From contig CACMGJ010000018.1 of the NCBI GenBank assembly GCA_902613175.1, forward strand, positions 1 through 44,512: 44,512 nt of DNA, in the 5' to 3' direction. This document shows positions 35,184-44,512 of the stretch, one piece after another; positions within the stretch are counted from its first letter, which is position 1, and every line of letters begins with the position of its first letter. Under the pieces are notes generated by a model. The model saw nothing but the letters and a program-made list of their open reading frames with translations, was not told the DNA's origin and made no database searches. The stretch is from Halieaceae bacterium. Lineage in GTDB: Bacteria > Pseudomonadota > Gammaproteobacteria > Pseudomonadales > Halieaceae. The position numbers were made by a program, and so were the translations under genes.

Positions 35184-35260
35184 TTACCTCAAAAACAATA
35201 ATGCCGTATGTGTTTCTGTAGTGAAACAAAATGCGTTTGGAAAAGGGAGATATCCAGCGA

Positions 35261-39659: not shown

Positions 39660-40172
39660 CTAGGCCACTGTCGCAACGCTGATATCGATGTCCTGACACA
39701 GCGAAATCGAGTGATGTTTGAGTTCATGGCGAAGCGTACCAAGATCATCCAGTCCTGGCACCTTGTGATCAGCCCCAAGTAGCTCAATCATCGGTTCCAC
39801 GACAAAGAGGCGTTCACTGATACCCGGATGCGGAATCAGGAGGTCGATATCGTCTATCAGCTGCTCCCCCATTTGAATGATGTCTAGATCGATACAACGC
39901 TCACCCCAATGCCGCACTTTTACGCGCCCCATGGCTTGCTCAATCGCCTGAAGCTCAGCCAGAAGTTGTCTTGGTTCTTCAGTGTAGATGCAAGTCGCGA
40001 CCGCATTAAAAAACGGTGGTTGGTCCTGGGGGCCCATCGGAGGTGAGGTAAATACACTCGAGACACTTAATCGGGTGATGCCCTGTAATTGCGACAATCT
40101 GAGACACGCTTCTTTAAGCTGCTGAGGTGGATTGTCGAGATTAGAACCCAGCGCGATGACCGTTGGTGTCAT
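39660..40172 (-). CDS. folK: 2-amino-4-hydroxy-6-hydroxymethyldihydropteridine pyrophosphokinase
   Basis: 170 residues. HPPK, the step before dihydropteroate synthase (folP, also in this window). Motifs VIALGSNLDNP at the N-terminus, FFNAVATC, and RHWGERCIDLDII with LIPHPGISERLFVVEP. Its ATG overlaps the pcnB stop by four bases. Confidence 0.96.
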   Translation of the reverse strand: MTPTVIALGSNLDNPPQQLKEACLRLSQLQGITRLSVSSVFTSPPMGPQDQPPFFNAVATCIYTEEPRQLLAELQAIEQAMGRVKVRHWGERCIDLDIIQMGEQLIDDIDLLIPHPGISERLFVVEPMIELLGADHKVPGLDDLGTLRHELKHHSISLCQDIDISVATVA

Positions 40173-41536
40173 TGACTGCGCTTTCTCCGGCGAGGTCGTC
40201 GCTTGCGCTGTGGAATCTCAGTCGCGGGCAAACTGCCAACCATATCGGGAAAGAGCTGCTGCTGTTCTTCCCAAAATGACACAGTCGACTTCAGTTCATC
40301 CGATGACTCGGATCTTAGCGATAACAAATCAAATGCAGCTCTGAAGCGTCGTTGCGACAAGACAGACTTCACTCGCTTTGAAGAGCATTTTTCGAGCCTG
40401 GGCTGAAGTTCCCAAATTTCCCGCATGGGAATTGAGAATCGTTTGGGGATAGACACTCGTTGCAACGTGATCTTGAGTACCTGTTGGCCAGCTGCATTAA
40501 TGGGCGATCCCTCGTGGGCACCAGCTCTGGCGACATCACTACCCTTCGCAGCAACCGCAGGCCATAACAATGCACCGAGGAGGAAGGCCGGTGTCACGGG
40601 CTTTCCCCGAGCAATGCGTGCATCCGTATTCGCCATCGCCTTTAGAATAAGGCTTCTCGACGACGGGTCATTCATGGCGCGGATAGCCTCAGGAAAGAGA
40701 GGTCCCAGTAATCCGTGCTTTGCTAGATGCTCAATCGTGGGTGCTGCAAATCCGGCCATAAAGAGTTTGAGGGTTTCGTCGAAAAGACGCGCGGCGGGAA
40801 TATCGGCTAGCAGGTGCCGGCATTGGCTAATGGCCACTTGGCTCGTTTCCTCGATAGTGAAACCCAGTTTTGCCGCGAATCTGACGACCCGTAGCATTCG
40901 GACTGGATCTTCGCTGTATCGAGTAGCTGGGTTGCCTATGATTCGAACGAGCCGTTGTCGGATGTCTTCTATTCCATCGAGATCGTCCAGGATAAGTTTA
41001 TTGACTGGATCCAGGTAGAGCGCGTTGATGGTGAGATCTCGCCGCGCCGCATCTTGGTCGAGCGTCCCGTAGACATTATCGCGAAGTAATAACCCTTTCT
41101 GAGATTTAATCGCGGTTTGAGGGGCTCCATCATCATGGTGACCACGGAAAGTCGTTACTTCGATGGTTTCTCTGCCCATGCGTACGTGGACAATCTGAAA
41201 TCGTCGCCCAATGATGCGCGACCCGCGAAATAGGGCAACGACCTGCTCCGGGGTGGCATTGGTTGCCACATCAAAGTCTTTTGGTCGCTTGCCCAAGAGC
41301 AGATCTCTAACGGCGCCACCAACGATGAATGCGCTGTAGTCATTGTCACAAAGTCGCTCGACGACAGAGACCGCGGCGCGCGACAGCGCGGTGTGATCAA
41401 TCAGCTTACTGGAATCAATAGTTTGCAAATTTGAGGACTCGAAAGCGCCAAGCCGCGATCTTATCAACTCAGGTGCTGTGAAGGGAAAAAAGAAACTGGG
41501 GGAAGTTACCTTCCCCGCCCAGGTCCGTAGTGACAC
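40169..41536 (-). CDS. pcnB: Poly(A) polymerase I (start uncertain)
   Basis: 455 residues from GTG 41536 (E. coli 465). PcnB adds 3' poly(A) tails that promote RNA decay. Nucleotidyltransferase core: IVGGAVRDLLLGKRPKDFDVAT near residue 72, RRDLTINALYLDP, and RYSEDPVRMLRVVRFAAKLGF; a highly basic C-terminus (RKRRPRRRKRSQ). The first 20-35 codons overlap a terminator-like hairpin on the same strand, and family similarity begins around LIDHTALSRAAVSVVERL, so the real start may be TTG 41467 or TTG 41428. Follows cbrB as in Pseudomonas. Confidence 0.9.
   Translation of the reverse strand: MSLRTWAGKVTSPSFFFPFTAPELIRSRLGAFESSNLQTIDSSKLIDHTALSRAAVSVVERLCDNDYSAFIVGGAVRDLLLGKRPKDFDVATNATPEQVVALFRGSRIIGRRFQIVHVRMGRETIEVTTFRGHHDDGAPQTAIKSQKGLLLRDNVYGTLDQDAARRDLTINALYLDPVNKLILDDLDGIEDIRQRLVRIIGNPATRYSEDPVRMLRVVRFAAKLGFTIEETSQVAISQCRHLLADIPAARLFDETLKLFMAGFAAPTIEHLAKHGLLGPLFPEAIRAMNDPSSRSLILKAMANTDARIARGKPVTPAFLLGALLWPAVAAKGSDVARAGAHEGSPINAAGQQVLKITLQRVSIPKRFSIPMREIWELQPRLEKCSSKRVKSVLSQRRFRAAFDLLSLRSESSDELKSTVSFWEEQQQLFPDMVGSLPATEIPQRKRRPRRRKRSQ
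41486..41516 (-). terminator. Terminator-like hairpin near the 5' end of pcnB
   Basis: On the minus strand GGGGAAG, loop GTAA, CTTCCCC, three bases, then TTTCTTTTTT. A 7-bp stem with nine T in ten. It could end a short RNA started at about 41578, or be read as pcnB codons (SPSFFF). Confidence 0.5.
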
Positions 41537-41578
41537 ATATTATTTTTATTCGGCCGCTTATTCTTATTTTGGCTCTAT
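41486..41578 (-). ncRNA. Candidate CrcZ-like small RNA between cbrB and pcnB
   Basis: About 93 nt. It has its own sigma-54-type promoter, two (AAN)4 blocks on the minus strand (complement of 41557-41570 and 41537-41551, reading AATAAGAATAAG and AATAAAAATAAT), and a terminator-like hairpin. AANAANAA blocks are the Hfq/Crc-binding elements that let CrcZ and CrcY relieve catabolite repression in Pseudomonas, and CrcZ lies in this same gap there. It is shorter than Pseudomonas CrcZ (about 400 nt). The alternative is a regulated leader of pcnB. No sequence similarity to CrcZ could be tested here. Confidence 0.5.
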
Positions 41579-41587
41579 CACATTTAA

Positions 41588-41603
41588 TGCATTTGCCATG
41601 CCA
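41588..41603 (-). promoter_or_regulatory. Sigma-54 promoter (-24/-12) upstream of pcnB / candidate small RNA
   Basis: Minus strand TGGCATGGCAAATGCA. The consensus is TGGCACG, four bases, TTGCA; the GG and GC pairs and their spacing are exact, with two other mismatches. Start expected near 41578. The gene upstream encodes a sigma-54 activator. Confidence 0.65.
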
Positions 41604-41666
41604 CTCATATTTTTTATATTAAAAACAATACATTAGTTTTTTTTTGTCGCCTGACCAATAGAGTTT

Positions 41667-41705
41667 TGTTACAAAAGTGTTACCGAAGTAAACCCCTGAT
41701 GTTAC
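41667..41705. promoter_or_regulatory. Three phased TGTTAC sites, probable CbrB enhancer
   Basis: TGTTAC at 41667-41672, 41678-41683 and 41700-41705: spacings of 11 and 22 bases place all on one helical face. They lie about 90-130 bases upstream of the sigma-54 start. The middle one extends to a dyad, TGTTAC-CGAA-GTAAAC. Confidence 0.55.
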
Positions 41706-41725
41706 TTATCGCACCATGTGGTGTA

Positions 41726-43108
41726 CTAAGCAGCGCCTCGCTTACGCTTTCTGGGGAGGTCGAAGCGTTGTCTTCTCTCCCACAGGCACTTTCTGCTGAT
41801 GCCGAGCTTCTGAGCTAGTTCCGTTTCGTTCATCGCATCTTGGTTCTCGAGAACAAACCGCTGGAAGTAATCTTCGAGCGACAACTCCTCAGCGTCGGTT
41901 TCACCCCCGGCTCTCGATTGAGAGGCTTCAAGCTTAGACTCCTCGGCAGGTGCAGTGCTAAATGCTGATACAACGGAGGTATGACTAGGAAGGTTGAGAT
42001 CGCTCATGGCAATGACATGGCCATCTGCCATGACGAGCGCTCGTTCTATCGTGTGTTCTAACTCGCGCACGTTACCCGGCCAGCTGTAATCTGACAGCGC
42101 GTTGTAGGCCTCGTCTGATAATGCCTTGGGTTCCACCGCAAGGCGTTCAGCTACGCGTTTCACCAGCCAGTTGGTGAGGCCTTCAATATCGTCGCCACGC
42201 TCTCGTAACGGTGGCAATTCGAGTCGCAACACATTGATGCGGTGAAACAGGTCACGCCGGAAGGCATCGGTATTCTCAAGTTCCATGAGGTTCCTGTGCG
42301 TTGCGCAGATGAGCCTGACATTGACGCTGGCACTTTCAACCGAGCCAATACGTCGAATCTCTCCCTCTTGAATGAATCTCAGTAATCGGGCTTGGGCGGA
42401 GGGCGGAAGCTCCCCAATTTCGTCGAGAAACAGTGTTCCTCCATCGGCGGCTTCAATCAGTCCTACTCGCTGTGCATTCGCGCCAGTAAACGCACCTTTT
42501 TCGTAGCCGAATAACTCCGATTCAATCAATGTTTCGGGAATCGCAGCGCAATTGACCGAGATGATGGGTTTACTAGCGCGCTCACTGGTCTGGTGAATGT
42601 GGCGTGCAACGAGTTCCTTTCCGGTCCCCGTTTCACCAATAATTAAAACGGTCGAGCTTGCTTTAGCTGCCTTGTTTGCCATTGCCATCAAGGCACGCAT
42701 GGCTGTCGATTTGCCAACAAAGGCTTCTACAGCGGGCGCTGTGTTTTCCGCGCTTTGTGACGTGGCAAGCGACGCGCGTCGAATACCGTCAAGAACATCT
42801 CTAATAGGCGCAGGTTTCGCCCAGTAATCACGCGCACCTGCCTTCATGAGCTCTACTGCTGATCTTAGTGATGCGTGTTGTGCATGGATAAAGACGGGAA
42901 CGGGATACAAATCGGCTATTAGCTGGTTCGCGCCTGCCTCATTGCGTCCTGGATCTAGGATCGCAGCATCAACACGCTCCGCAGTCTTAATCGCCCCCAG
43001 CGCTGAAAACGGCAATGCTTTGATCACTTTCATTCCTTCAGTCGCTAGATCGTCAGCTGTATGTGTGGCACTGATGGGGTCATCGTCGAGCAAGAGAACC
43101 GTAAGCAT
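41726..43108 (-). CDS. cbrB: CbrB-like sigma-54-dependent response regulator
   Basis: 460 residues. A receiver (1-110) keeps the acidic triad D8-D10, a likely phosphate-accepting D52 and K98, but has Ala76 where a Thr/Ser normally stands. The AAA+ domain has Walker A GETGTGKE (158-165), GAFTGA (205-210, sigma-54 contact) and LFLDEIGELP (226-235). The C-terminal Fis-type helix-turn-helix (ETELAQKLGISRKCLWERR) closely resembles Pseudomonas CbrB from memory, as does the SLEDYFQ.FVLE linker. Position between gluQ and pcnB also fits CbrB, the carbon/nitrogen balance regulator. The partner kinase gene cbrA, expected between gluQ and cbrB, is missing. Confidence 0.88.
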   Translation of the reverse strand: MLTVLLLDDDPISATHTADDLATEGMKVIKALPFSALGAIKTAERVDAAILDPGRNEAGANQLIADLYPVPVFIHAQHASLRSAVELMKAGARDYWAKPAPIRDVLDGIRRASLATSQSAENTAPAVEAFVGKSTAMRALMAMANKAAKASSTVLIIGETGTGKELVARHIHQTSERASKPIISVNCAAIPETLIESELFGYEKGAFTGANAQRVGLIEAADGGTLFLDEIGELPPSAQARLLRFIQEGEIRRIGSVESASVNVRLICATHRNLMELENTDAFRRDLFHRINVLRLELPPLRERGDDIEGLTNWLVKRVAERLAVEPKALSDEAYNALSDYSWPGNVRELEHTIERALVMADGHVIAMSDLNLPSHTSVVSAFSTAPAEESKLEASQSRAGGETDAEELSLEDYFQRFVLENQDAMNETELAQKLGISRKCLWERRQRFDLPRKRKRGAA

Positions 43109-43197: not shown

Positions 43198-44040
43198 TTA
43201 CAGATTCTTTGAGTTTAGCGCATCGCGCCGCCAGTTGGCGGTCGCGAGATGCAAAATATCCTCAAGGCAATCCATGTCTTGTGGGGGTGTCGGCTGCCCT
43301 AAAAAGGCCAATGCGCGGCGAAGGTTAGCGTTGGGAGTATCCGTATCAATCGCCTGGGCGCCGGTTTGTTTACTGAGCTTATTTCCTGACTGATCGGTGA
43401 CGATGGGTAAATGGCCGTACTCGGGTGACAGGCGTCCAAGGGTTTGATGAAGCATCATTTGGCGGAGGCTCGATTCGAGCAGATCGGCACCGCGAATCAC
43501 ATGGGTATAGCCCTCATCGAGGTCATCGATTGCTGTTGCCAACTGATACGCGATCAGTCCATCCCTACGTTTAACAATGAAGTTACTGGGTAGAGCGGAC
43601 GCACGTTGTTCGCCAAGAAATAGGTCCTTGACTCGGTCGGGGGCATCATCTGGTACATGGAAACGGACGCTGCCTTCAATATCTTTACGATCCCTGCAAT
43701 CTGAAACGCATGCGCCAAGCTCACCCAAGGTTGCTCTGGTGCACAGGCAGTGGAACAAATGACCCGCATTTCTGAGTTTGGACAGCGCGTCCTCATGCGC
43801 GTAACGACGCTGGCTTTGGAAAATAATAGGCCCATCCCAAGTCAGGCCATGGCGCTCTAGGCAGAGGGGGATGGATCCGAAGCTCGATTTGTCGTGACGT
43901 GGTGGATCGATATCGTCAACGCGCAGGTACCACTCGCCCTCATGTGATCGAGCGTCGAGAAAGCTACCTAAAGCTGTGACCAAGGAGCCCATGTGAAGTG
44001 GGCCCGTGGGAGATGGAGCAAATCGTCCTCGATATATCAA
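43198..44040 (-). CDS. gluQ: Glutamyl-Q tRNA(Asp) synthetase (start uncertain)
   Basis: 280 residues from TTG 44040; another TTG at 44106 would overlap dksA by 46 bases. A truncated GluRS paralogue lacking the anticodon-binding domain; it attaches glutamate to queuosine in tRNA-Asp. Seen: YRGRFAPSPTGPLHMGSL (HIGH-type motif), VDDIDPPR, a Cys cluster (CLCTRA...CVSDC) for zinc, and NKLSKQ (KMSKS-type). Follows dksA as in E. coli and Pseudomonas. Confidence 0.93.
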   Translation of the reverse strand: MIYRGRFAPSPTGPLHMGSLVTALGSFLDARSHEGEWYLRVDDIDPPRHDKSSFGSIPLCLERHGLTWDGPIIFQSQRRYAHEDALSKLRNAGHLFHCLCTRATLGELGACVSDCRDRKDIEGSVRFHVPDDAPDRVKDLFLGEQRASALPSNFIVKRRDGLIAYQLATAIDDLDEGYTHVIRGADLLESSLRQMMLHQTLGRLSPEYGHLPIVTDQSGNKLSKQTGAQAIDTDTPNANLRRALAFLGQPTPPQDMDCLEDILHLATANWRRDALNSKNL

Positions 44041-44060
44041 GCCCGCAGCGCCCCCGCGTA

Positions 44061-44512
44061 TTAACCGAGCTCTTGGCGTTCCTTGATTTCTGCCAAGGTC
44101 TTGCAATCAATGCAAAGCGTCGCCGTGGGCCGTGCTTCCAACCGTTGAACGCCGATTTCGATACCGCAGGCGTCGCAGTAACCATAATCGTCGATTGAAA
44201 TTCGCTCTAAGGTGCTGTCAATCTTTTTGATCAGCTTGCGCTCACGATCGCGCGCGCGGAGCTCGAGGCTAAATTCTTCCTCTTGCGTCGCTCGGTCTGC
44301 TGGATCTGGGAAGTTCGCGGCCTCGTCCTTCATATGACCAACGGTTTTGGTTACTTCAGTTACGAGGTCGGCTCTCCAACTGCGCAGAAGCTGACGGAAA
44401 TGCTCCAACTGCTCCTCGTTCATGTAGCTCTCACCGCGCGACGGCTTGTATGGCTTGAAGTTATCGAACTTCTGAACCTCACCGATAGCGCGAGCCACAT
44501 TAGACGGTGCTT
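44061..44512 (-). CDS. dksA: RNA polymerase-binding transcription factor DksA, 5' end at or beyond the window edge
   Basis: The frame is open to the window end; GTG 44498 gives 145 residues, while E. coli DksA has 151, so the true start is probably just outside. DksA works with ppGpp in the RNA polymerase secondary channel. The coiled-coil tip NFPDPADRA retains the Asp, Asp and Ala needed for activity, and the zinc finger is CDAC...CIDC with the usual spacing. First of the dksA-gluQ pair. Confidence 0.96.
   Translation of the reverse strand, partial: APSNVARAIGEVQKFDNFKPYKPSRGESYMNEEQLEHFRQLLRSWRADLVTEVTKTVGHMKDEAANFPDPADRATQEEEFSLELRARDRERKLIKKIDSTLERISIDDYGYCDACGIEIGVQRLEARPTATLCIDCKTLAEIKERQELG

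Follow-up and report, generated by a model that had tools for sequence, protein, structure and literature searches.

The DNA analysed here, referred to as the window, is a stretch of 44,512 nucleotides that forms contig 18 of a 1.9-Mb Halieaceae genome of 58.6% completeness. Towards its end, the minus strand carries a gene with a Pfam tRNA-synt_1c match (43198..44106), which we take to be a gluQ-like gene, about 90 bp upstream of a gene for a CbrB-like sigma-54 activator of 460 amino acids (41726..43108, minus strand; Pfam Sigma54_activat, E 9.9e-70). The next gene on the same strand is pcnB. The first-pass annotation had placed a compact CrcZ-like RNA locus between cbrB and pcnB, and had counted the start of pcnB as part of the RNA region. 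The open frame of pcnB does extend to a GTG at 41536, but this is probably not the start of the gene. A TTG at 41428 is the likelier start (pcnB at 40169..41428, minus strand), as suggested by the relatives and by the element TGATAAGAT (41458..41466, minus strand), which resembles what we take to be the extended -10 consensus and which, from the reading of the window and its relatives, is a candidate for pcnB's own promoter. With a start at 41428, the small RNA need not overlap pcnB.

The gap between the two genes is densely occupied on the minus strand. A predicted promoter of the -24/-12 sigma-54 type, TGGCATGGCAAATGCA, at 41588..41603 matches 11 of the 12 scored positions of what we assume to be the sigma-54 consensus, and it is preceded by an IHF-like site at 41623..41635, predicted by reading, that agrees with 8 of 9 positions of the presumed IHF consensus. 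Further upstream lie three putative CbrB-like subsites with the sequence GTAACA (41700..41705, 41678..41683 and 41667..41672), spaced by 22 and then 11 bp, the third of which is absent from some close relatives; the CbrB subsites of P. putida are given as TGTTAC/GTAACA in a passage of PMC6296734. Downstream of the promoter, the promoter, the terminator and the conservation described below together delimit a predicted small RNA of about 93 nt (41486..41578), the start of which would lie near 41577. It contains two (AAN)4 blocks, at 41557..41568 and 41539..41550, and ends in an intrinsic terminator read from the sequence at 41486..41516, in which the arms GGGGAAG (41516-41510) and CTTCCCC (41505-41499) enclose GTAA and are followed by nine T among the ten positions 41495-41486. 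The phased TGTTAC sites, the promoter, the AAN blocks and the GC hairpin with its T-run had all been noticed in the first-pass annotation, and each was found again at the same position. The full set of elements, defined as a promoter score of at least 10/12 with at least two GTAAC/GTTAC sites upstream and at least two AAN blocks downstream, occurred in only 1 of 20,000 dinucleotide shuffles of 41486-41725; a -24/-12 element scoring at least 11 was on its own present in 194 of 20,000. The motif AANAANAANAA is found five times in the window versus 0.96 expected, and two of these five occurrences are the two (AAN)4 blocks.

We compared the predicted RNA with the Rfam model of CrcZ (RF01675). A cmscan search returned a match at 41573-41491 with 14.4 bits (E 1.2), as opposed to a curated threshold of 95 bits, and by score the window RNA is therefore a variant rather than a member of RF01675. 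The positive control, Pseudomonas fildesensis, gave a match of 349.6 bits at the same place after cbrB, and among the 18 sources scanned the gathering threshold was passed only by L130, L073, L074 and L058. The Rfam CrcZ search of the window's own genome returned no match, and it is uninformative, since the 14 control genomes were silent as well. The predicted fold places block 1 in the loop of a three-pair stem (GCC at 41573-41571 with GGC at 41555-41553), and block 2 is unpaired in the consensus fold. Folding of the RNA was no better than that of shuffled sequences (z 0.20), and among the 10 predicted pairs none had changed on both sides in the alignment of the genus. A model built from the family sequences, R1, found 41485-41579 as its sole match in the window's own genome and gave one match in 23 of the 25 genomes belonging to the genus; those that it missed are 83% and 54% complete. 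One genome contains a second R1 match away from cbrB (G037:C160:7904-7998, E 4.6e-5), which may be an additional copy comparable to CrcY. When run on 370 genomes of the class, R1 matched the window's genome only; because further members of the order among these genomes went undetected, the model is uninformative about other families.

The alignment of relatives bears out the expectation that the promoter and the RNA are kept and the rest drifts. Among 22 loci of the genus, the mean pairwise identity is 0.85 in the RNA (from AGAG to the end of the hairpin) and 0.72 in the promoter, as compared with 0.47 in the region 70-15 bp upstream of the -24 element, 0.41 between -12 and AGAG, and 0.40 past the T-run. 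Within the AAN blocks, A is invariant across the 32 family sequences at 13 of its 16 positions and is found in 29, 25 and 29 of them at the other three, and all eight N positions vary (alignments A2 and A4 exclude L043 and L046). A lack of AAN conservation in relatives, which according to the first-pass annotation would have spoken against the RNA, was not observed. The pattern of constant A and variable N is compatible with an Hfq distal face that recognises AA(R)N triplets, as described in a passage of PMC8395346. A further conserved stretch, GGACCTGG at 41519-41526 on the minus strand, has seven of its eight bases invariant in the 32 sequences and the eighth kept in 31, and neither the AAN blocks nor the core hairpin accounts for it. 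Two loci from sister genera, L033 and L036, have a second AAN-AAN-terminator unit about 360-470 bp after cbrB that lacks a clear -24/-12 element and is perhaps a differently driven copy.

The presumed protein partners are encoded as well. Hfq was found in 36 of 38 relatives, the window's own genome included, and in 24 of the 25 genomes of the genus (a partial copy in one case); the best solved relative of the own-genome protein is 1u1s, presumably the Hfq of P. aeruginosa. A 253-aa protein of the same genome has as its best solved relatives two chains named 'Catabolite repression control protein' (2.9e-50 and 4.4e-50; 173.8 bits), followed by 2myi, which is named Exodeoxyribonuclease III (1.9e-48, 167.9 bits), and the exodeoxyribonuclease 2jc5 (1.1e-37, 132.6 bits). 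A nuclease-like paralogue from G003, 31% identical to it, shows the reverse preference, as it matches 2jc5 (4.3e-91, 308 bits) better than Crc (4.4e-75, 255.4 bits). Judged by this relative best match, the 253-aa protein is probably Crc. Its orthologue is present in 22 of the 25 genomes of the genus, and the three without it are 65-80% complete.

The spread of the unit through the order had not been seen in the first-pass annotation. CbrB matches with E-values of 1e-90 or better were obtained in 239 of 293 genomes drawn from the order, and loci were taken from 32 of its 45 family labels. The CbrB search of the 38 relatives yielded 30 loci, with pcnB downstream in 27 and not at L025, L029 and L030. 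A scan of named genomes, among them Dasania sp. GY-MA-18 (L126), Gilvimarinus gilvus and Pseudomonas fildesensis, relied on AAA+-core patterns and retrieved mostly other NtrC-type genes, so that 5 of its 80 loci (L126-L130) were taken as orthologues. The full unit was present within 700 bp downstream of cbrB at 94 of 100 orthologue loci, a count that excludes L029 (contig end) and L126 (contig shared with L094), and in 30 of the 32 family-level groups examined, the missing groups being f8 and f10. The six loci without it are L025 (f10), L030, L063, L064 (f8), L129, for which only 334 bp of downstream sequence was available, and L127, from an uncultured Pseudomonadaceae MAG. One more locus, L218 (G058, f35), has neither the unit nor pcnB in the stretch examined and brings the total to 94 of 101. 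L025, L030, L063, L064 and L218 are cbrA-cbrB loci with neither pcnB nor the RNA unit in the stretch examined. As a negative control, 75 NtrC-type loci from many phyla, taken as non-orthologues by their lower score (L131-L205), were scanned whole on both strands (1,283,670 bases), and the unit was found in none of them. An order of this breadth would fit the reclassification that merged Cellvibrionales and Oceanospirillales into Pseudomonadales, as reported in a passage of PMC7498684.

The elements also keep their distances. In 67 of the 94 loci, 78-82 bp separate the last GTAAC/GTTAC from the -24 element, 104 of 187 neighbouring pairs of GTAAC-type sites over these loci are 19-23 bp apart, and the best IHF-like match is located 32-33 bp before -24 in 61 of 94. 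IHF-like matches in at least 8 of 9 positions were found at 59 of the 94 loci versus 7.4% of mononucleotide shuffles. Lengths, which our caller returned for 72 of 102 rows, are 79-91 nt for f9 and for the majority of f1, and 363-370 nt with 5-6 AAN blocks in the Pseudomonas-type loci L130 and L073; some other rows are longer still. At L068, three tandem promoter-plus-AAN units share one cbrB-pcnB gap, and two such units are found at L044, L056, L060, L066, L077, L085, L088, L089, L094 and L095. Between cbrB and CrcZ, matches to Rfam P36 are present at two Pseudomonas-type loci (L074 2437-2499 and L130 5770-5830). In a set of 276 genomes of the class, CbrB was matched at E 1e-90 in 23, 3 of which belong to the order. 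From the 20 genomes outside the order, nine loci (L217, L219-L226) were examined; a CbrA-like match precedes CbrB in all nine, and neither pcnB nor the AAN unit was found in the stretch examined of any of them. At L217, L224, L225 and L226, the CbrAB-like pair is followed by GTAAC/GTTAC sites and a -24/-12 element but no AAN blocks. The RNA may have arisen in this order upon an older CbrAB promoter arrangement.

Two further features that had gone unseen in the first-pass annotation concern the control of CbrB itself. At a cut-off of E 1e-40, CbrA was detected in 11 of the 38 relatives and in none of the 25 genomes of the genus, five of which are 97-100% complete; it was likewise not detected in G036 (f13) and G026 (f3). 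A laxer cut-off retrieved full-length CbrA in the genomes of L126, L128 and L130, and matches to the C-terminal part of CbrA only in G006, G016, G017, G036, G075 and G103. The position upstream of cbrB that cbrA occupies in most other families examined is taken in the window by the gluQ-like gene, and in the loci of the genus about 80-120 bp separate cbrB from the end of the gluQ match. The AAA+ and HTH parts of the window's CbrB are conserved according to Pfam and the alignment. Its receiver scores 24.1 bits with Response_reg, below the cut-off of 30.2, and, at the positions that we take to be conserved in receivers, it has retained the Asp and carries Ala in place of Thr. The phospho-receiver Asp of P. 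putida CbrB is Asp52, according to a passage of PMC7918813.

Of 102 CbrB rows, 77 have an upstream CbrA match, although that of L084 is a cbrA remnant only and many others are cut by the end of the locus, and in each of these 77 the five receiver positions are kept. The receiver differs in 24 of the 25 rows without a CbrA match, all from the genus and family f13: Ala replaces Thr in 9 rows (the window's group), Glu replaces Asp in 6 rows plus both rows of f13, and Asp, Thr and Lys are all changed in 7. The change from Asp to Glu occurs in two lineages. In some response regulators, exchange of the phosphorylated Asp for Glu imitates the active state. The exception is L096, which has no cbrA, an intact receiver and a cbrB close behind what is presumably a dksA-like gene. 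A piece of cbrA that contains a stop is present between gluQ and cbrB at L084, where the receiver is intact; this possibly represents a recent loss of the kinase. In a tree built on the AAA+ and HTH part of CbrB, the no-CbrA label had to change four times, with L096 on a long and uncertain branch. The CbrB receiver of the genus thus appears to have lost the look of a normal phospho-receiver. In the sister genera of the family that have CbrA, our caller put the RNA at 87-91 nt for 10 of 12 loci (longer for L032 and L041), and the short RNA is therefore a family trait that is independent of the loss of the kinase.

Taken together, the sequence evidence supports the compact CrcZ-like RNA locus of the first-pass annotation, in particular through its conservation and the presence of genes for Hfq and a probable Crc. 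We estimate the probability that the cbrB-pcnB interval encodes a compact (about 93 nt) decoy RNA of the CrcZ type for Hfq/Crc at about 0.8. According to this model, CbrB would bind the GTAACA sites, IHF would bend the DNA, and sigma-54 RNA polymerase would start near 41577 and stop at the terminator (41486). The two (AAN)4 blocks of the RNA would then bind to the distal face of Hfq, with Crc as a probable partner, in competition with mRNAs, as CrcZ does, and this binding would relieve the translational repression of catabolic and transport mRNAs. With CbrA apparently lost and the CbrB receiver changed in the genus, the output of the RNA is probably not set by CbrA and would depend on the amount of CbrB, on sigma-54/IHF or on a ligand. 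Several observations were counted against the decoy reading, namely the presence of only two AAN blocks, the low Rfam score, the lack of a folding or covariation signal, the closeness of the probable Crc to exodeoxyribonuclease chains, the intact receivers of L096 and L084, and the seven cbrB loci of the order that have no unit. A possible target was sought in the window, where AAAAACAATAA (35191-35201, plus strand) precedes by about 70 nt a small gene that is followed by one for a sodium:solute symporter. We take this small gene to be DUF4212-like. In the leader of the DUF4212-SSF genes, 15 of 29 relatives have AANAANAA close to the start, a number that has no chance control and was not counted.

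The conserved stretch next to the terminator could mean that the RNA is an Hfq-dependent base-pairing sRNA with GGACCUGG (41526-41519) as its seed and AAN blocks that only aid the loading of Hfq. The invariance of GACCTGG, which is preceded by G in 31 of the 32 family sequences, is indeed not demanded by a decoy; however, this stretch lies inside or beside the terminator stem in some folds of relatives, and the place, the activator sites and the AAN blocks are those of CrcZ, and we consider such a seed improbable. It is less probable still that the interval holds no separate gene and the signal belongs to pcnB, as its leader or attenuator, or to the cbrB mRNA, as a processed 3' end. A precedent exists in the read-through transcript of cbrB-crcZ that is processed to CrcZ in Pseudomonas (a passage of PMC8395346), but the -24/-12, GTAAC and IHF-like sites stand in the gap at fixed distances, the terminator comes before the -10-like element of pcnB, and the distance to pcnB varies widely.

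The least probable of the alternatives is that the locus is the decaying remnant of a larger CrcZ without a present function. The RNA is short and has two blocks, and the kinase appears to be lost, all of which could be expected of a remnant; decay is, however, difficult to reconcile with the high identity of the RNA relative to its surroundings at the 22 loci of the genus, and the shortness is shared by sister genera that keep CbrA. The decoy reading is preferred. On the evolution of the system we are evenly divided over a broader scenario in which CrcZ is ancestral to the whole order and, in the genus and separately in f13, the kinase was deleted, CbrB became independent of phosphorylation, with Glu substituted for its phosphorylated Asp in two lineages, and a minimal RNA with two sites buffers Hfq/Crc. 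If this is true, catabolite repression would be gated in these bacteria by the level of CbrB or by a ligand.

What is new in these findings is that CbrA was not found in the genus and that the CbrB receiver is altered there, and also that the unit is spread through the order. A unit in so many family-level groups would extend catabolite control by Hfq/Crc to many other bacteria. The RNAs of the window's family would be natural minimal decoys, suited to finding out the number of Hfq sites that such an RNA must have. Natural experiments on a response regulator that works without its kinase would be provided by lineages that appear to have lost CbrA and have a changed CbrB receiver.

CbrAB is called unique to Pseudomonadaceae in passages of a review (PMC8871633) and a research paper (PMC6296734), and the review calls the crcZ arrangement unique to this family too. 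Among the matches listed from the titles and abstract openings of the open-access literature, we found no crcZ gene outside Pseudomonadaceae, and the nearest described case among them is sRNA99 of Acinetobacter baumannii (PMC12802169). By its description in a passage of that paper, sRNA99 resembles the window RNA in having AAN motifs, three in its case, and its action on Hfq reminded the authors of CrcZ. CrcZ and CrcY of Azotobacter vinelandii share with the window RNA the CbrB and RpoN sites and a role in catabolite repression that is predicted here; unlike the window's bacterium, A. vinelandii belongs to the Pseudomonas family and has the kinase (a passage of PMC6292655). CrcZ of strain PAO1 is an Hfq decoy of 407 nt that lies in the cbrB-pcnB gap and is driven by RpoN, CbrB and IHF, as stated in a passage of PMC8395346. 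The window RNA differs from Pseudomonas CrcZ in its length and in its two AAN blocks (against 5-6 in the 363-370 nt of the Pseudomonas-type loci), in its 14.4 bits against a threshold of 95, and in the missing CbrA and the altered CbrB receiver that accompany it. It is like Pseudomonas CrcZ (RF01675, with CrcY and CrcX) in its position in the cbrB-pcnB gap, its sigma-54-type promoter with CbrB and IHF sites, its AAN blocks and intrinsic terminator, and its partners Hfq and, probably, Crc, here predicted from the encoded proteins. The RNA thus falls below the Rfam threshold and belongs to a genus in which CbrA was not found, yet it probably sits and works as CrcZ does.
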